A stretch of 64,000 bases of DNA from the NCBI RefSeq assembly GCF_900113245.1, contig NZ_FOOQ01000001.1:744001-808000 (forward strand). Reading direction: 5' to 3'. Source of the stretch: Halopelagius inordinatus. GTDB taxonomy: Archaea; Halobacteriota; Halobacteria; Halobacteriales; Haloferacaceae. Positions 4,448 to 12,073 of the stretch are shown piece after piece. The notes beneath the pieces were generated by a model. It saw only the letters and a program-made list of their open reading frames with translations, ran no database searches and had not been told where the DNA came from. The position numbers and the translations under genes were made by a program. The first letter of the stretch is position 1. Each line of letters opens with the position of its first letter.

Positions 4448-4460
4448 CAGTCCCGTGGTG
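4448..4460 (+). repeat. Direct repeat of the tRNA-Gln 5' end
   Basis: The 13 bases CAGTCCCGTGGTG at 4448-4460 recur at 4514-4526, where they are the base before and the first 12 bases of the tRNA-Gln gene. The flanks are also loosely alike (gagtgagcagtcccg and atgcgagacagtcccg). No matching 3' acceptor strand follows the first copy, so it is not a second tRNA. Confidence 0.6.
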
Positions 4461-4464
4461 GTGA

Positions 4465-4483
4465 GTGAATCCGGCGGATTCAC
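4465..4483. repeat. Perfect 19-base palindrome upstream of tRNA-Gln
   Basis: GTGAATCCG-G-CGGATTCAC, an inverted repeat with 9-base arms around one central base, lying between the partial tRNA copy and the tRNA gene. It could be a protein site, a hairpin or a chance feature. Confidence 0.5.
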
Positions 4484-4514
4484 GAGGTACGCGGGGCGGC
4501 GAGCAATGCGAGAC

Positions 4515-4587
4515 AGTCCCGTGGTGTAGTGGCCAATCATAATGGCCTTTGGAGCCATTGACGGCGGTTCGAATCCGCCCGGGACTA
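4515..4587 (+). tRNA. trnQ: tRNA-Gln (anticodon TTG)
   Basis: The cloverleaf can be drawn fully. The acceptor arms AGTCCCG and CGGGACT pair in all seven positions. The anticodon stem ATGGC/GCCAT carries loop CTTTGGA, giving anticodon TTG (reads CAA). The T arm is GGCGG-TTCGAAT-CCGCC. The discriminator is A at 4587. No CCA is encoded and there is no intron. The 3' part of this gene is duplicated at 8171-8184, so the gene seems to have served as an integration target. Confidence 0.93.
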
Positions 4588-4870
4588 TACGACGGCTACG
4601 CCGTCACCCGATTTTCAGCCGTGGTATGGAGCGAGAAACACCATGCCACAAGCCATTTCGACTGAAGCAGTCGGAAACGTCGCCGCCGTACAGCGATTAG
4701 CAACGTACCAGGCTCATGAACAGTCCGGAGGTCGGTGACTGTGGACTACGTCGCAGACGACTTTCCCCTCACGACCTCGAAGAGCCGCGAGGTTCTCACG
4801 GAGTCGAAGATGCCGAGAAGGTGCTCACTATCGGATAACCAAACGCCCACTCTGGCGAAACCCCGGTAAG
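4588..4870. other. Non-coding stretch at the tRNA-proximal end of the island
   Basis: I see no convincing gene. A 31-codon ORF (4643-4738, beginning MPQAISTEAVGN) and a following open stretch (VDYVADDFPLTTSKS) could be remnants of a deleted gene. Neither resembles a family I know. This is where an integrase gene would be expected in an intact tRNA-targeted element. Confidence 0.4.
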
Positions 4871-5605
4871 TCAGTCAGCAGTCTGTTCGGCTTGGTGGGC
4901 TTGTTCTACGCCCAATGGGTCTGCCGTCGATGTCGCGGTGACCAGTCGCAAGAGCTGTCCCGCGTTCGTGAGGAGTTTGTTCTCCGCCTTCCGGAGGTGT
5001 TCTTCGTACGTCGAGCGAGCGACGGTCGTCTGGCCGGCCAGTTCTCGCAGCGAGGTCTTCCGCGGTTGCTCGTAGTAACCGCTTTCCAGCGCCAACTGGA
5101 GTGCTGCTAACTGCCGGTCGGTGAGGTTCTCGAATAGTTGATTCGCGGGGGCCAGCATACTGTGGGGTATCTGCTTCTCTGCGATCGAGGTTTTCGAGAG
5201 CAGTTCGATCTCCCTATCGGCTCGCAGGTCACCGAGTAGGTCCCGGATGTCTTCACTGTCGAACGCGACCACCGTGTAGTGCTCCCATCCTTGGCGGTAG
5301 ATCGTCGGTGATTGGTACAGACAGTTGTGTTGCTCGAAGCGGTCGATGATGGACTCTTCGAGTGAGCAGAGACAGGACTGCGTGACGACGTGATACCCGC
5401 TGTCGTCCTCCGATTCGTGTAGAACGGTCCCCAGTTGACTGATCTCGTCGTGCAGTTCGTCAGTCGGTGTCGTCTCGGAGGAGATCTCGAGCACCTGGCA
5501 GTCGCTCAGCGGCCACTCACGTATGGTCAAGTCCGGGTGCCGTTCCGAGATCTCCCGGTACGGACACTCGTGTCTGACCCGAATTGAGGCCTCGTACAGA
5601 CTCAT
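4871..5605 (-). CDS. Bat-type HTH-10 transcription regulator with cysteine-rich sensor domain
   Basis: A 244-residue haloarchaeal regulator. The C-terminal HTH-10 domain (about residues 155-225) has LTDRQLAALQLALESGYYEQPR followed by TSLRELAGQTTVARSTYEEHLRKAENKLL (given here in parts of the domain). The N-terminal half carries five cysteines, at 14, 36, 78, 80 and 95, including a CLC pair, which suggests a redox, thiol or persulfide sensor. I start at ATG 5605 (MSLYEASIRV), 27 nt after a TATA-like GTTATTTC on this strand; an in-frame ATG 14 codons upstream is less likely. It is divergent from a persulfide dioxygenase gene across an operator-like palindrome and probably controls it. Confidence 0.85.
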   Translation of the reverse strand: MSLYEASIRVRHECPYREISERHPDLTIREWPLSDCQVLEISSETTPTDELHDEISQLGTVLHESEDDSGYHVVTQSCLCSLEESIIDRFEQHNCLYQSPTIYRQGWEHYTVVAFDSEDIRDLLGDLRADREIELLSKTSIAEKQIPHSMLAPANQLFENLTDRQLAALQLALESGYYEQPRKTSLRELAGQTTVARSTYEEHLRKAENKLLTNAGQLLRLVTATSTADPLGVEQAHQAEQTAD

Positions 5606-5627
5606 ACGAGTAACTTTGGTCTGGTCA

Positions 5628-5666
5628 GAAATAACAGTGCCGGTCATGTCCGGCAGGTACTATAAG
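5628..5666. promoter_or_regulatory. Divergent promoter with operator-like palindrome
   Basis: An 18-base near-perfect palindrome, TGCCGGTCATGTCCGGCA (5638-5655; one mismatched pair), sits exactly between two TATA-like boxes. GTTATTTC on the minus strand (5628-5635) serves the HTH-10 gene, and TATAAG (5661-5666) serves the persulfide dioxygenase gene, whose ATG follows 29 nt after the box. A dimer bound here would touch both promoters. The regulator encoded on the left is the natural candidate. Confidence 0.6.
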
Positions 5667-5694
5667 CAGATGCACCTGCTATTCGGGAATACCG

Positions 5695-6807
5695 ATGCAA
5701 GAGATAACGCCGGAAGAACTCAGCGAACAGTTGCGAGATGGTGACGGAGGCCCGCTCGTTCTCGATATCCGCCACGAAGAAGACTTCGAGGACTGGCAGA
5801 TTCCAGGCAGTATCAACGTCGACGTCTACGACGAATTAACTGAAGACCCTGCTCAAGCCAAAGAGGCTCTCTCGGAGCTCCCTCGTGAGGAACAGATCGT
5901 CACCGTCTGTGCCGCAGGTGTTGTCTCAGAGACCGCAACGGAGGTCCTCCAAGAACTGGACTACGACGCGGTGACGCTCACTGACGGGATGAACGGCTGG
6001 AGTCGAGTGCATAGGAACGCACCAGTTCCTGATGACCTCGACGGGACGCTTATTCAGGTCGCACGTCCGGGGAAGGGCTGCCTCTCACACGTCCTCATTT
6101 CAGACGGCGAAGCCGCCGTCTTCGACCCGTCGCACTACCTCGAAGAGTACGAGGCGATTCTCGACGAGTACGACGCCGAAATCGTCGGTGTCTTCGACAC
6201 GCACGCCCACGCCGACCACGTCTCGGGTGCGGCGGAACTCGCCGACCGTCACGGCGTTCCGTACTACCTCCACCCCAAGGACGCACTCGCCATCGACGCG
6301 ACGCCCGTCGAGGACGGTCAGACTGTAACGGTCGGCACTCTCGATATCGAGGTCGTCCACACGCCGGGACACAGCGAGGGGAGCGTCTCGTTCGACGTCG
6401 CCGGTGCAGCGCTGATCACGGGCGACACGCTCTTCTACGAGAGCGTAGGTCGGGTCGAACTCGGCGTCGAAGCCGGTATCGAAGACTCCGACGTCGAGCA
6501 GAACGCCGCGACACTCTACGAGAGCCTCCAGCGGCTAGTGGACCGTCCGAACGATGCGCTGGTCCTGCCGGCCCACGACCCCGGTTCACCCGAACCGCCA
6601 GTAACTGCGACGCTCGGTGAAGTCAGAGAACGGAACCAGGACCTGGGGCGCGACCGCGAGGAATTCGTCCGAGAACTCGCGTCGGATATCCCAGATCATC
6701 CACCGAACTTCCAGCGCGTCAAGCGGACGAACGTCGGGCAGGAATCCGTTCCCGCCGACGAACTGGCCGAGCTGGAACTGGGCCCAAACAACTGCGCAGC
6801 GGAGTGA
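5695..6807 (+). CDS. Rhodanese / metallo-beta-lactamase persulfide dioxygenase fusion
   Basis: A 370-residue two-domain sulfur enzyme. Residues 1-110 are a rhodanese with DIRHEEDFEDWQIPGSINV and the active loop TVCAAGVVSETAT (cysteine in CxxGxxS). Residues 120-300 are an MBL-fold dioxygenase with DTHAHADHVSG and the metal ligands in HTPGHSEGSV, TGDTLF and LPAHD. The tail DHPPNFQRVKRTNVG is typical of persulfide dioxygenases (ETHE1/CstB-like). Expected role: oxidise protein or low-molecular-weight persulfide to sulfite, with sulfur transfer by the rhodanese part, in the cytoplasm. The rhodanese domain is N-terminal, the reverse of the PDO-rhodanese fusions I know. An MFS gene follows after 3 nt. 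Confidence 0.88.
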   Translation: MQEITPEELSEQLRDGDGGPLVLDIRHEEDFEDWQIPGSINVDVYDELTEDPAQAKEALSELPREEQIVTVCAAGVVSETATEVLQELDYDAVTLTDGMNGWSRVHRNAPVPDDLDGTLIQVARPGKGCLSHVLISDGEAAVFDPSHYLEEYEAILDEYDAEIVGVFDTHAHADHVSGAAELADRHGVPYYLHPKDALAIDATPVEDGQTVTVGTLDIEVVHTPGHSEGSVSFDVAGAALITGDTLFYESVGRVELGVEAGIEDSDVEQNAATLYESLQRLVDRPNDALVLPAHDPGSPEPPVTATLGEVRERNQDLGRDREEFVRELASDIPDHPPNFQRVKRTNVGQESVPADELAELELGPNNCAAE

Positions 6808-6810
6808 TCT

Positions 6811-8103
6811 ATGAGTACGGACACCGAAATCAAACAAGGAATCCGTGAGCACCTCGGGCAGTTCTCATTGCACGTCCTGCTCGTGTTCGCGACGGGCCTT
6901 ACCATCGGGTCCGAGCGCGCCGTCGTACCCGTACTTGGTCGCGACGTGCTGGGCGTCGAGTCGCTACTGGTCATCGGGTCGTTCGTCGTCTCGTTCGGCT
7001 TCGTCAAGGCACTGCTCAACCTCTACGCCGGCAAGTGGGGCGGCGAGTACGGTCGCAAGCCGGTACTCATCCTCGGCTGGGCGACCGCCCTCCCACTCCC
7101 GGTCATTCTGATCTTCGCGCCGAGTTGGGGCTGGATCACCGTCGGGAACATACTGCTGGGCATCAACCAGGCGTTGACTTGGAGTATGGCCATCAACGCT
7201 AAGATCGACATCGCAGGTCCCGAGCAGCGCGGACTCGCGGTCGGTATCGACGAGGCGTTCGGCTACACCGGCGTCGCCGCCGGTGCCTGGATCACCGGCG
7301 TCATCGCTGCCCGCACGAGTCTCCGACCCGAACCGTTCTACTTCCTCGCAATCGTGGTCGTGCTGGCGTTCCTCATCTCGATCTTCCTGATCAAGGAGAC
7401 GGTCCAACTCGCGGAGGCCGAGATCGACGACGAGGACCACCACGACGCCAACCTCCCGTTCGTCGAGGTGCTGAAGCGGGCGACCTACGGTGACAAGACG
7501 CTGTTCGCCGCGGCCCAGGCCGGGCACATCGAGAAGTTCGTCGACACGCTGTTCTGGCTCGCCGTCCCGCTGTATCTCACCAGTCAGGGACTCGGGATCG
7601 CAGCTGTCGGGTTCATCGTCGGCGTCCACAGCGCGATGTACTTCCTCCAGATCGCGACCGGTGGCCTCGCGGACCGTATCGGTCGGCGTCCGCCTGTCGT
7701 CGCTGGAATGTTCCTCGCCGGTGCAGGTGTCCTCGGGATGGTCCTCGTCGAGGGCTATCTCCTGTGGGCCGTGCTCTCCGGTGTATCCGGCCTCGGGATG
7801 GCACTACTCTACCCTAATCTGATGACCGTTCCCGGCGACGCTGCCCATCCGACGTGGCGCGCGACTGGGATGGGCGTCTATCGGATGTGGCGTGACGCTG
7901 GCTACGGTGTGGGCGCGATTCTGGTCGGTCTCTCGATGGAGTTCGTGAACGCCGAGACCGCGTTCTACGTGATCGCGGCCCTGATGTTCGTCTCTGGAGC
8001 GGTTGTCTATCTGTGGATGGAAGAGACGCACCCCGAGTTCGGGACGCACGAACCACCAGCACCGGCTACTGATACGCCTGGACGGGCGGTCTCCGATGAT
8101 TGA
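6811..8103 (+). CDS. MFS transporter
   Basis: A 430-residue major facilitator with about 12 membrane segments. The MFS loop motif is visible between helices 2 and 3 (GKWGGEYGRKPVLILGW) and again in the second half (GGLADRIGRRPPVVAG). An acidic central loop (ETVQLAEAEIDDEDHHDANLP) separates the halves. It starts 3 nt after the persulfide dioxygenase stop, so the two are co-transcribed. Export of sulfite, thiosulfate or another sulfur product, or import of a sulfur substrate, is a guess from context. The sequence itself does not reveal the substrate. Confidence 0.85.
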   Translation: MSTDTEIKQGIREHLGQFSLHVLLVFATGLTIGSERAVVPVLGRDVLGVESLLVIGSFVVSFGFVKALLNLYAGKWGGEYGRKPVLILGWATALPLPVILIFAPSWGWITVGNILLGINQALTWSMAINAKIDIAGPEQRGLAVGIDEAFGYTGVAAGAWITGVIAARTSLRPEPFYFLAIVVVLAFLISIFLIKETVQLAEAEIDDEDHHDANLPFVEVLKRATYGDKTLFAAAQAGHIEKFVDTLFWLAVPLYLTSQGLGIAAVGFIVGVHSAMYFLQIATGGLADRIGRRPPVVAGMFLAGAGVLGMVLVEGYLLWAVLSGVSGLGMALLYPNLMTVPGDAAHPTWRATGMGVYRMWRDAGYGVGAILVGLSMEFVNAETAFYVIAALMFVSGAVVYLWMEETHPEFGTHEPPAPATDTPGRAVSDD

Positions 8104-8135
8104 GAGGTGTCCACTCTCGGGTTGAGATTTCACTA

Positions 8136-8185
8136 CCGTGGTATCGAACGGGTGCCCTGCTGAGGTTCACAATCCGCCCGGGACC
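8136..8185 (+). repeat. Partial, decayed copy of tRNA-Gln (attR-like)
   Basis: AATCCGCCCGGGAC (8171-8184) is identical to the tRNA-Gln 3' end. Upstream of it GGTTC matches the T loop with one extra base, and CCGTGGT at 8136-8142 matches the tRNA 5' region. The D and anticodon arms are missing. It therefore looks like a tRNA copy with an internal deletion, or an attachment site plus chance similarity. The stretch 8104-8375 holds no gene that I can support. Confidence 0.55.
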
Positions 8186-8375
8186 ATTCTATCTGACCGA
8201 CGTGAAGACGAGTAGCGGACGGTAGATTCGACACCCCGAAGACGAGAGTATCGCCGACACGCGCCGCGTCCTGACGGGTGATTCGCTATCGGTATCCGAT
8301 TTTCTGTGGATAGTGGGGCTTCGCCTCGGCTCTCCCCGGCAACGTCATCTCGCGTGGTGCCGTAGTGGTCGGTAG

Positions 8376-9191
8376 ATGCCGACGCTTCAGACGAACGGTA
8401 TAGAGACCTACTACGAGGTGAGCGGAGACGGCCCGCCTATCGTCTTCGTTCACGGCGCACTGTCCGATCATTCGGCAGCGACACAGCAATTGAGAGCGTT
8501 CAGTGACGCGTACACCGCCATCGCGTACGATGTCCGGGGCCACGGCGACACCGCGAACCCCCAGCACGCACCCTATTCGATCGACTTGTTGGCGGAGGAC
8601 CTCCGCGCGTTCATCACCGAGATGGGCCTCGAGTGTCCCGTTCTCTGCGGGGTCTCGATGGGCGGTATGATCGCTCAAGTCTACGCGAGTCGCTATCCGG
8701 ATGAGCTCAGCGGTCTCGTACTCGCCGACACGTTCTCTCCGGAGTTCCTCGGTCGGCGCGACCGAATCGAGCGATCCAGCCTGGTGAACGCTGTGGCGGG
8801 ACTCGTCCGCCTCGTAGGATACAACCGGGCGAAGGGCCTCGTGTTGTGGGTCGGACGCACACTGGAGCGAAACCAGACCACGAGTCTCCGCACCGACGCC
8901 TTCCCGGACATGGCCACCGTGGACGCCGTGAATGCCCTCGATGCGGTCGCCGACTTCCATACCACCGACATCGACCTCTCTTCGATTACCGTTCCGACGC
9001 TCATCCTCTACGGCGAACACGAAACCGCCCTAATCGGCCGCCACGCCCCGACACTGTCCGCGCGAATCCCGAACTCGACCGTCCGGCAAGTCCCCGACGC
9101 GGGCCATGCTTCCCCCTGGGATAACCCCGAGTTCTTCGAGAGCGCCATTCGAGCGTTCCTCGCATCCCGGACTCGGATCGAGGCAGAGTAG
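8376..9191 (+). CDS. Alpha/beta hydrolase
   Basis: A 271-residue alpha/beta-hydrolase fold enzyme. The oxyanion motif VFVHGALSDHS is near residue 25, the nucleophile elbow GVSMGGM near residue 93, the acid in LILYGEHET near residue 212, and the catalytic histidine in VPDAGHASPW near residue 240. The order and spacing fit the 3-oxoadipate enol-lactonase/haloperoxidase-like subgroup, but the substrate cannot be named. It stands alone, just outside the island boundary, and starts at ATG 8376. Confidence 0.85.
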   Translation: MPTLQTNGIETYYEVSGDGPPIVFVHGALSDHSAATQQLRAFSDAYTAIAYDVRGHGDTANPQHAPYSIDLLAEDLRAFITEMGLECPVLCGVSMGGMIAQVYASRYPDELSGLVLADTFSPEFLGRRDRIERSSLVNAVAGLVRLVGYNRAKGLVLWVGRTLERNQTTSLRTDAFPDMATVDAVNALDAVADFHTTDIDLSSITVPTLILYGEHETALIGRHAPTLSARIPNSTVRQVPDAGHASPWDNPEFFESAIRAFLASRTRIEAE

Positions 9192-9638
9192 AACGGCACC
9201 CCACGTCGAAACACTCGTCGCAGTCCAGACGTACGGGTCGCTCGCGCGACTGACGGTCGTGCTCCGTCTCCGAGAGCGGGGACGGTGAAAACCACTACCG
9301 AGTTCGGTGGCGCGTCCGAGCGACCCCGGTAGCGGCGCGACGAGGCTCGCTGTAGCCACGATTACGACCCTGGAGGAACCAAACGCCGAGTTCGCCGCCC
9401 GGGGTGACACTCCGGTTTCTCACCGACGAGTCGCCGAGCGTCGACGTCCGGCGAGACGGACGAGACTACTATCATATAACGGACTATTATCTGCTCTATC
9501 CGATTCGGACGCCGAAATTGGACGGGTCCGTCGATCCAGACTATCCGTTAAAGACTCGATTCAGGCGTTTTATCTTTCGTTAACGAAGTTTACTCTAAAC
9601 CGAGTACGTTATACGCTCGCGTCGATTCGTATTATTTG
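9192..9638. other. Long intergenic region, AT-rich in its second half
   Basis: No gene that I can support. An open frame at 9307-9639 (110 codons) changes from Arg-rich to AT-rich codon use and resembles no family, so I treat it as chance. From about 9470 the DNA becomes distinctly AT-rich, with repeated TTA/TAAC elements such as CCGTTAAAG, CGTTAACG and CGTTATACG. This suggests a multi-element promoter for the small membrane protein gene at 9686. Confidence 0.5.
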
Positions 9639-9689
9639 ATGACTGAAACGATCTCTCTGCTGTTCGCCGCGACGGAGGATACACGATGA
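9639..9689 (+). other. Leaderless micro-ORF (16 codons) overlapping the next start
   Basis: Reads MTETISLLFAATEDTR and stop. The ATG is 28 nt downstream of the TATA-like GTTATACG (9609-9616 region). The TGA overlaps the ATG of the membrane protein gene as ATGA. GGAGGAT at about 9675-9681 gives that gene a Shine-Dalgarno sequence inside the micro-ORF. Translation is not demonstrated. Confidence 0.4.
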
Positions 9690-9994
9690 TTTGGCAGGAC
9701 TTAATCTTCCTCGCCGGAAGCGTCTTCTCGCTTTTCGTGCTCGTGCCATCTCTCCGAGACGCGACGACTAACATTCCGCTGGGAACCTCGCTGCCCTCCG
9801 CGACTATCGGTATCGTCTACGGAACGACGTTCTTCACGCTCGGGATGACGATGTCCGCGGCGGGATCGGTTCTCACGGGACTGATGTGGAGCGTCATCGC
9901 GGTTCTCCGTTCGCCGCACCCGTTCGACGGACTGGTAGACTCGAACAGTACCGAACAGAACGCGACCCACTCCGGCCCGCAGAACGCCGACTAA
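9686..9994 (+). CDS. Small membrane protein of unknown function
   Basis: A 102-residue protein with three predicted membrane segments: about residues 3-22 (IFLAGSVFSLFVLVPSL), 37-57 (ATIGIVYGTTFFTLGMTMSA) and 58-75 (AGSVLTGLMWSVIAVL). A short polar tail rich in Asn, Ser and Gln follows. A strong Shine-Dalgarno sequence (GGAGGAT) precedes ATG 9686. It is flanked by an AT-rich promoter region and a run of five T after the stop (10020-10024) that may end the transcript. I recognise it only as a haloarchaeal-type hypothetical membrane protein. Confidence 0.7.
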   Translation: MIWQDLIFLAGSVFSLFVLVPSLRDATTNIPLGTSLPSATIGIVYGTTFFTLGMTMSAAGSVLTGLMWSVIAVLRSPHPFDGLVDSNSTEQNATHSGPQNAD

Positions 9995-10086
9995 ACGACT
10001 TTCCCGTCTCTTCGCCCTCTTTTTCGACGTCTCGCCGCTTCTCGTCTCGTCGAACGGTAGTCATACCGCGCTCGAAAAGGGAAGCG

Positions 10087-11100
10087 TCAGGTCGTCTCCG
10101 GAGCGATTTCGAGGAGACGGTCCGCCAACCGCAGCAGTTCCCCGCGTTCTTCGAGCGTCTCCGCCCACCGGTCGGGTATCGATTCGACGCCGAAGCGCGC
10201 GCCCGCGACGGCACCGGTCACCGCGCCGACGGTGTCTGCGTCGTCGCCCTCGTTTACCGCCTCGACGACCGCTTCCTCGAACGAGTCCGCGGTGAGGCCG
10301 TGGTACAGGCCGGATTCGAGCGTCGCCAACACGTAGCCGCTGTATCCGAGCGTCTCGGGGTCCGTCTCCGCGGGGAGTCCCGCCACGCGCGTCCACAGTT
10401 CGTCGGGAACCCGGTCCTCTCCGTCGATTGCGCTCAGCGCGTCGCTGACGACTCCCTCGGTGTCCGCTTCCCCGCGGACGAGCCGACGGACCACCTCGTT
10501 CAGCAGGGCGCACCCGGCCGTACAGCGGGGGTCTGCGTGCGTAATCTCCGAGGAGGCGCGACTGACTTCGGCGAGTCTGTCGGGCGTCTCGCGGTAGGCG
10601 AGAGCGTACGGGACGCACCGCATCACGCTCCCGTTGCCGGCGTTTTCTCCCTCCGCTCGCCGCTCCCAGACCCGCCGTCCGGCGTCCTCCCACGCCGTCC
10701 CCTCGCGGACCAACGCGAGCGAATCGGCGGTCGTGAGGCCGATGTCGAACGGACCGGAGTCGTACCACGCGAGGAATCGGCGGGCGACGTCCGCACCGTC
10801 GAATCGTTCCCGTTCGACGAGGCTCCGCGCGATACAGAGCGCCATCTCCGTGTCGTCGGTGACCGTCCCCGGCGGCTTGCCGTACGTCCCGTCGCCGAGC
10901 ATCTCCGTCACGCGGCCGTACTCCGCCTCGATGGCCGCGGGCGTGCGAAACTCCACCGGTCGGCCGAGCGCGTCTCCGCAGGCCAACCCGAGGAGCGTTC
11001 CCCGCGCCCGCGACCGGACGCCCGCAGAGTCGGTCCGGCGGGCCGACCGACTGCGCTCGTCTCCGTGGTCGGTCATACTCTCGTTCGGCTCCGGTGACAT
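10087..11100 (-). CDS. ADP-ribosylglycohydrolase (DraG/ARH family)
   Basis: A 337-residue ARH-type hydrolase. The family metal sites are visible: GLACGDALGRPVEF near residue 38, TVTDDTEMALCIARSL near residue 79, and the C-terminal NEGDDADTVGAVTGAVAGA near residue 290. These coordinate the two Mg ions that remove ADP-ribose from proteins or small molecules. Start: ATG 11100, or ATG 11076 (MTDHGDERSRS), which would drop eight residues. It is monocistronic and convergent with the small membrane protein gene. The natural substrate is unknown. Confidence 0.87.
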   Translation of the reverse strand: MSPEPNESMTDHGDERSRSARRTDSAGVRSRARGTLLGLACGDALGRPVEFRTPAAIEAEYGRVTEMLGDGTYGKPPGTVTDDTEMALCIARSLVERERFDGADVARRFLAWYDSGPFDIGLTTADSLALVREGTAWEDAGRRVWERRAEGENAGNGSVMRCVPYALAYRETPDRLAEVSRASSEITHADPRCTAGCALLNEVVRRLVRGEADTEGVVSDALSAIDGEDRVPDELWTRVAGLPAETDPETLGYSGYVLATLESGLYHGLTADSFEEAVVEAVNEGDDADTVGAVTGAVAGARFGVESIPDRWAETLEERGELLRLADRLLEIAPETT

Positions 11101-11998: not shown

Positions 11999-12073
11999 AT
12001 GAACTCAATGGCGAACGTTCGAACGTCCCCCCTCTCTCCGAACGCGGAGGTGGCACCGTGGACGTCGAGATAA
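11999..12073 (+). other. Upstream short ORF (24 codons) overlapping the HD-hydrolase start
   Basis: Begins MNSMANVRTSPLSPNAEV and ends at TAA 12071-12073, 16 nt inside the next gene. A TATA-like CCTAAGAG lies about 28 nt upstream of its ATG, and another (CATTAATT, about 11984) gives an alternative transcript start. A GGAGGTG sequence in its 3' part precedes GTG 12058. This is a weaker case than the ATGA-type overlaps elsewhere. Confidence 0.25.

Follow-up and report, generated by a model that had tools for sequence, protein, structure and literature searches.

Among the described systems, two from the haloarchaea stand closest to the locus considered here. In Haloquadratum walsbyi, a partial duplication of tRNA-Thr1, spanning 6.7 kb and integrase-less, was interpreted by its authors as what is likely left of a prophage or integrative element, and the same report also covers haloarchaeal insertions at tRNA-Glu and tRNA-His genes that go with an HF2-related integrase (PMC3119063). 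The locus in question belongs to Halopelagius inordinatus and lies in a stretch of 64,000 nucleotides (contig NZ_FOOQ01000001.1, positions 744,001 to 808,000, forward strand; below, the window, from whose first letter all positions are counted). In the window, 3.6 kb of DNA behind a tRNA-Gln gene, here called the island, holds a regulator, a rhodanese-metallo-beta-lactamase (MBL) fusion and a transporter of the major facilitator superfamily (MFS), which together form a sulfur cassette. The island is a decayed tRNA-targeted element of a known kind, with an unusually readable history. It shares with the tRNA-Thr1 case a partial tRNA copy several kilobases downstream and the lack of a nearby integrase, and it differs in content: hypothetical genes and pseudogenes are reported there, whereas the DNA here holds a conserved sulfur cassette and what is probably an integrase stub, and the old junction is marked by a trailing unit. 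In the tRNA-Glu and tRNA-His insertions, the integrase stands beside the complete tRNA, and tRNA-Glu to integrase stretches from two other genomes (loci L153 and L154) align with the window; unlike them, the window uses tRNA-Gln and keeps only about 21 integrase codons.

Insertion at the tRNA-Gln gene

The features that define the two ends of the island are the following.

4515–4587, plus strand: intact tRNA-Gln gene (TTG), the insertion target (ARAGORN)
4572–4585, plus strand: attL, left attachment core, identical to the tRNA 3' end (exact 14-nt repeat)
8171–8184, plus strand: attR, right attachment core, the displaced old 3' end of tRNA-Gln (exact 14-nt repeat)
8187–8248, plus strand: decayed tRNA-trailing unit, with its head at 8187–8222 and the start of a class-B hairpin at 8225–8248 (alignments to the trailers of other genomes)

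The first-pass annotation had pointed to an exact 14-base repeat of the tRNA-Gln 3' end, 3.6 kb downstream and extendable with one insertion, and both observations were confirmed. The sequence AATCCGCCCGGGAC at 4572–4585 occurs again, without a change, at 8171–8184; it grows to 17 nt with one mismatch (AATCCGCCCGGGACTAT against a copy ending in CAT; repeat family D16), and GGTTC lies 5' of both copies, with one additional base at the right one. This is the sole 14-mer from the last 50 bases of tRNA-Gln that recurs in the window on either strand. The island is thus bounded by a complete tRNA on the left and by a repeat of that tRNA's 3' end on the right, as a tRNA-targeted element should be.

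The tRNA-Gln neighbourhoods of 37 relatives were fetched and 15 window genes were mapped onto them; two of these loci (L055 and L077) represent a tRNA-Gln gene of the CTG type and the rest the TTG type. The regulator, MBL and MFS genes were found at none of the 37 loci (E ≤ 1e-6, within the fetched stretches, some of which end at contig ends), so that the outcome which the first-pass annotation had named as contrary to its view, the same gene order in all relatives, did not arise. In 13 of the 37, the only congener compared (G001, locus L043) included, tRNA-Gln is followed by a hairpin unit whose tail is another copy of the tRNA 3' end, counted when it lay within 150 nt of tRNA-Gln and its 22-nt tail had at most 4 mismatches. 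The DNA after the second copy in the window corresponds to these units: together with the tRNA end it matches the trailer of genome G007 at 87% over 53 bp (E 1.4e-11) and that of G018 at 81% over 62 bp, and it also aligns to the class-B unit of the congener and to loci L048, L056, L064 and L066. The trailing unit stands directly after the tRNA in relatives and after the second copy here; therefore, the island entered between the tRNA and its unit and displaced the old tRNA end. Comparison of these sequences shows that the island is an insertion at the 3' end of tRNA-Gln. The earlier proposal of a fixed element at this site is thereby upheld, on the strength of the uninserted relatives, of the congener, whose best match to the rhodanese-MBL protein reaches only 40%, and of a second island at the same site in another genus. 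The empty site predicted by the annotation was found as an uninserted tRNA-Gln, but not with the expected alpha/beta hydrolase as its neighbour, a gene without a match in the fetched stretches of the 37 loci.

The second island, in genome G111, is an independent case at the equivalent tRNA-Gln gene. There, tRNA-Gln is followed by 30.2 kb of DNA, a 17-nt copy of the tRNA end, a unit, and then the methyltransferase, HD, epimerase and gltB genes, which are also the right-hand neighbours common to relatives. Its G+C content is 0.55, against 0.64–0.66 in the flanks, and a PF00589 protein (tyrosine integrase) is encoded about 0.5 kb inside the right end. This island was located through its orphan unit, which has no adjoining tRNA, and it extends on contig C1 from tRNA-Gln to about position 547567 (loci L311 and L314). 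In G010, a genome of the same genus, the unit lies directly behind tRNA-Gln, with a shortened tail missed by the strict count given above, and the genome's own copy of the sulfur cassette is on another contig. By eye, the start of the G111 island resembles the trailer of Natrinema gelatinilyticum (L201), which in turn matches the DNA behind a 46-nt 3' half of tRNA-Gln on contig C7 of the congener.

A probable integrase remnant and a dsrE stub at the left end

The annotation had listed the three genes as the only content of the island. All three are present; however, the stretch 4588–4838 in front of them is not empty and appears to hold an integrase 5' stub fused to a dsrE 3' stub.

4588–4740, plus strand: arm region; its homologues are the stretches that separate tRNA-Glu from an intact integrase gene in G007 (L154) and, at lower similarity, in the congener G001 (L153) (blastn, alignment)
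4741–4802, plus strand: about 21 codons (VDYVADDFPLTTSKSREVLTE), probably the 5' stub of a tyrosine integrase gene (peptide match to L154 and L153)
4803–4838, plus strand: 3' stub of dsrE, the last 11 codons (VEDAEKVLTIG) and the stop; start of cassette homology and deletion junction (position; intact dsrE carries PF02635)

In a blastn search of the left end against all loci fetched by then, L154 was matched at 67% over 210 bp (E 9e-8) and L153 at 70% over 97 bp (E 0.007), and the three-way alignment of the window with both has a mean column identity of 75%. Positions 4598–4803 align with the DNA that runs from tRNA-Glu to the start of an intact integrase gene, its first 21 or so codons included. 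The stub peptide matches the beginning of the L154 integrase at 54% over 24 amino acids (E 0.001) and the L153 integrase at 44% over 27 amino acids (E 0.005), and the intact integrase reading frames of both loci carry PF00589; in Pfam, the stub peptide itself gives just Sigma70_r3 at E 0.076, under the cut-off. Searched against the 392 genomes of the order, the remnant is matched over most of its length, beyond the window, in G007 alone (E 1.7e-7), the other matches being short pieces, several of which are the dsrE end (query positions 214–257). The integrase stub is supported but short. In place of an integrase gene the island holds just this probable stub, and the nearest PF00589 match in the genome is at C1:811853, about 60 kb past it; the island is a remnant and not an active element.

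The dsrE assignment draws on the position of this gene in other cassettes. Intact or partial, dsrE stands beside the regulator gene in 21 of 89 cassette loci, a set that includes some genomes twice (under a G handle and under a name), and in 18 of the 21 the distance is 33–41 bp; by the same measure, the window stub is 39 bp away. The simplest reading is one internal deletion that reaches from inside the integrase gene to the end of dsrE. The absence of an integrase noted in the first-pass annotation is therefore probably a later loss and not an original trait, because what seems to be a decayed integrase start adjoins the tRNA.

The sulfur cassette and its distribution

The three intact genes of the island are these.

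4871–5647, minus strand: transcription regulator with HVO_A0563_N and HTH_10 domains (Pfam E 3.5e-44 and 1.9e-20)
5695–6807, plus strand: rhodanese-MBL fusion, persulfide-dioxygenase-like (Pfam PF00581 and PF00753)
6811–8103, plus strand: MFS transporter (Pfam PF07690)

The best guess for the fusion is a persulfide dioxygenase, because its MBL part is closest to the solved chains 3tp9 and 3r2u and then 4ysb, with BpPRF and ETHE1 lower down among the structural neighbours. The HxHxDH motif and the later metal-site motifs of the ETHE1/CstB group are present, as THAHADH, HTPGH and TGDTLF...GRVEL, both in the fusion and in its alignment to 3tp9 and 3r2u. The persulfide dioxygenase-rhodanese fusions 3r2u (presumably CstB of S. 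aureus), BpPRF (5ve3) and 3tp9 are alike in joining an MBL domain of the same family to rhodanese. They are unlike the window protein in domain order, since rhodanese is N-terminal here and lies behind the MBL part in 3tp9 and 3r2u (weakly seen) and in BpPRF. In the bifunctional sulfur transferase/dioxygenase Blh (NCBIfam NF040641), the sulfurtransferase precedes the dioxygenase, as here, and its dioxygenase half matches the fusion (E 1.2e-14), but with 54.1 bits against a cut-off of 625 the fusion is not a member. No NCBIfam cut-off is reached, the best score being that of GSH_gloB (78.4 against 200.8 bits). The genome encodes five further full-length rhodanese-MBL paralogues with 38–48% identity. 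The regulator gene is divergent from the enzyme gene, 47 bp apart, and its product probably controls the enzyme and the transporter. Sulfane sulfur would pass from the rhodanese to the MBL domain and there be oxidised to sulfite, and the transporter would export a product or toxic sulfur species. The self-contained persulfide response module suggested at first is plausible from these domains, although dsrE has been lost here.

With the MFS protein as query (E ≤ 1e-60), 137 of the 392 genomes were matched, the window's own included, with listed identities mostly of 83–93% and some of 63–77%; a scan of named genomes found the protein in 96 places, of which 80 were kept. The cassette DNA homology usually begins near 4803 or at 4870–4930 and ends near 8070; therefore, the regulator, MBL and MFS genes form a unit. 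The order of the whole cassette is dsrE, HTH_10 regulator, rhodanese-MBL and MFS, some copies being without the MBL and others without the regulator, and the distribution of the cassette is patchy and crosses families. At L136, L140, L201, L203, L207 and L208, the rhodanese-MBL gene is cut to short fragments between regulator and transporter; these loci were picked by their transporter, so that they do not reveal which gene selection keeps. In the tree of the MFS protein (80 rows), the window groups with Haloarcula amylovorans (support 100/93) and then with N. gelatinilyticum (95/86), members of two families other than its own, the Haloferacaceae, and the transfer of the cassette between families is therefore well supported by the phylogeny.

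In G153 the cassette follows tRNA-Gln at a distance of about 90 bp. In N. gelatinilyticum the distance is about 3.7 kb, and the intervening DNA holds an IS110-type transposase, another regulator and dsrE. A general tie between the cassette and tRNA-Gln was considered and rejected, G153 being the only one with such a placement among the 80 best-scoring cassette genomes (positions compared by eye; 78 with a tRNA-Gln match and two without). Elsewhere, the cassette lies 0.15–1.7 kb behind tRNA-Met (L203, at 149 bp, L207 and L208) and 81 bp behind tRNA-Arg (L247), in Natrinema and Haloterrigena, and no 3'-end copy was found at these four loci.

Origin of the island

The stretch 4588–8187 is probably the collapsed remnant of an integrative element that lost its integrase by internal deletion and whose cargo was the sulfur genes. 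A tyrosine integrase, kin of those beside haloarchaeal tRNA-Glu genes, would have integrated the element at the tRNA-Gln 3' end; this integration would have restored the tRNA and moved the old 3' end 3.6 kb downstream, together with its trailing unit. Subsequently, a deletion within the element would have fused codon ~21 of the integrase gene to the last 11 codons of dsrE, with the junction at about 4803. That the integrase was removed in this way is suggested by the meeting of its stub with the dsrE end at that position; the deletion would also have fixed the island, in which the regulator, the rhodanese-MBL enzyme and the MFS transporter stayed as cargo. The site, its uninserted state, the displaced tRNA end, the dsrE stub and the spread of the cassette across families are borne out by comparison with other genomes; we infer that the cassette was already part of the element when it moved and was not added afterwards.

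Several observations weigh against this history. The integrase stub is only about 21 codons long, its relatives stand at tRNA-Glu and not at tRNA-Gln, full-length integrase queries reach no match at E 1e-3 in the window, and 21 such queries gave no match at the tRNA-Gln loci of the 37 relatives. The rarity of the cassette at tRNA-Gln (one of 80) shows that it is not tied to the site, and beyond the cassette no 3'-end copy was found in N. gelatinilyticum (L201) and none longer than 10 nt in L141. Moreover, the G+C content of the island is close to normal (0.612, with 0.582 for the regulator gene alone), near that of the DNA to its left (0.620) and of the window (0.646); base composition is therefore weak evidence and was not accepted as proof.

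An alternative is a history in two events, in which an unrelated element at tRNA-Gln decayed to its ends and the cassette came later by ordinary recombination, so that stub and attR would not be the cassette's own. The cassette has similar boundaries at many sites that lack this integrase, it occurs behind tRNA-Met and tRNA-Arg without a 3'-end copy, and when cassette loci were scanned, with one best query recorded per stretch, an integrase of the L153 type came first in a single instance, a fragment in L246. However, the integrase stub meets the dsrE stub at a single junction, 4803, with no remains of a second element between them, and one deletion suffices; two separate events seem unlikely, though they keep some weight. 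A further alternative takes the second copy as the tail of an older trailing unit and lets the DNA enter a tandem array of units by other means, which would leave the repeat uninformative on integration. Tails that repeat the tRNA 3' end are indeed a property of the units, which may also be tandem, and CTGAGGTTC before the second copy is closer to some unit tails than to the tRNA. Yet a search of 501 bases with the unit model gives no hairpin ahead of 8171 (best score 4.2 bits, E 0.56), the congener carries a single class-B unit, placed directly after its tRNA, while the class-B remnant of the window follows the second copy, and the arrangement of the window recurs in G111 together with an integrase, all of which makes this alternative very improbable.

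Repeat units behind haloarchaeal tRNA genes

The trailing units, or "tRNA echo" repeats, are more surprising than the island itself. They are hairpins of about 100 nt that follow many haloarchaeal tRNA genes, singly or in tandem, and each has a tail that repeats, closely or exactly, the 3' end of the tRNA that it follows (for example L063:12604–12844, L112–L131 and L278–L307). By their tail copies 44 units were recognised (the 22-nt tail being exact in 25), at 13 tRNA-Gln loci and at 16 of the 18 off-site loci with a tRNA. A hairpin model was built from 29 units. In the genome of H. inordinatus it gives 17 matches at E ≤ 0.003, all behind tRNA genes, 16 of them within 330 nt of a listed tRNA and the last behind an intron-containing tRNA-Trp, and in G013 12 of 14 such matches lie behind tRNAs; three sequences of the former genome and four of the latter are part of the model, and those matches hold by construction. 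A weak match in the window at 4475–4577 (15.7 bits, E 0.025) was discounted, as it pairs the tRNA's own T-arm with the leader hairpin.

In a sample of the phylum, 22 of 148 genomes match the model at E ≤ 1e-5 under strict filters, and these appear, from the listing order, to be 22 of the 24 Halobacteriales and none of the 124 others. The search yielded 30 loci, 29 of which have an intact tRNA on the same strand within 400 nt, of 11 amino-acid types; when the six model sequences among them are set aside, a tRNA is near the unit in 23 of 24. With up to 2 mismatches allowed, the unit tail contains the last 14 nt of that tRNA in all 29 cases, against 0.5% for other tRNAs, and the only unit of the 30 without a tRNA is the displaced one of the G111 island. 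The units have more structure than shuffled sequences, with a median z of −3.1 (42 of the 44), which is not so for unit-free tRNA-Gln trailers (median −0.15, 23 controls); covariation is modest, as 4 of 13 predicted pairs changed on both sides in some sequence, with a covariation term of −0.79. The 5' arm of the unit mostly follows the T-loop variant of the adjoining tRNA. An arm matching the T-loop, with at most 3 mismatches in 10, is present in 38 of 43 units, whereas shuffled sequences have one in 22%; for the T-loop TTCAAATC it is present in four of the five model units with that T-loop and absent in one, and the first unit of L116 is without it.

At the gathering threshold of Rfam, the loci L063, L044 and L056 are matched by tRNA alone, and among titles and opening lines of abstracts in the open-access literature, subscription journals being outside the scope, no description of the units or of the cassette was recognised. 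The units are thus a seemingly undescribed repeat family that spans the Halobacteriales. As a tentative suggestion, these repeats are perhaps copied from the tRNA end and might serve as spare attachment sites or as fail-safe 3' ends that protect tRNA genes during the landing of elements. The tyrT locus of E. coli offers a parallel, with tandem 178-bp repeats behind the tRNA gene that each contain a copy of the tRNA-Tyr 3' end; unlike these repeats, the haloarchaeal units follow many different tRNAs, form hairpins of about 100 nt and are found order-wide.

Neighbouring features

On the 5' side of tRNA-Gln, a dtxR-like gene is found in 25 of the 37 relatives. A leader hairpin at 4449–4514 opens by repeating the tRNA 5' end; comparable leaders were seen by eye in L066, L068, L069 and L071, and in L141 the leader is doubled in tandem (L141:6597–6728).

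4449–4460, plus strand: copy of the tRNA-Gln 5' end (AGTCCCGTGGTG) in the leader hairpin upstream of the tRNA (exact match)

On the 3' side, the flank beyond the unit differs in most relatives, and the HD-domain gene (window position 12058) occurs at 16 of the 37 loci, its distance from the tRNA ranging between 143 bp (L074) and 11.3 kb (L049). At 8376–11100, after the unit remnant and ahead of the methyltransferase and HD genes, the window holds the alpha/beta hydrolase, a 102-amino-acid reading frame and a reading frame at 10087–11100 (minus strand), none of which is matched at the tRNA-Gln loci of the 37 relatives; this stretch is perhaps an older insertion layer.

Significance

Summarizing, the island illustrates how a tRNA-targeted element fossilises, with the integrase stub, the deletion junction and the displaced tRNA end readable together, and these three explain how a travelling sulfur cassette comes to stand at a fixed site of the core genome. 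Partial tRNA copies in the Halobacteriales can be tails of trailing units, and caution is advisable when they are taken as proof of integration. Units that copy the end of the adjoining tRNA would matter for tRNA 3' processing and for the role of tRNA genes as landing sites.

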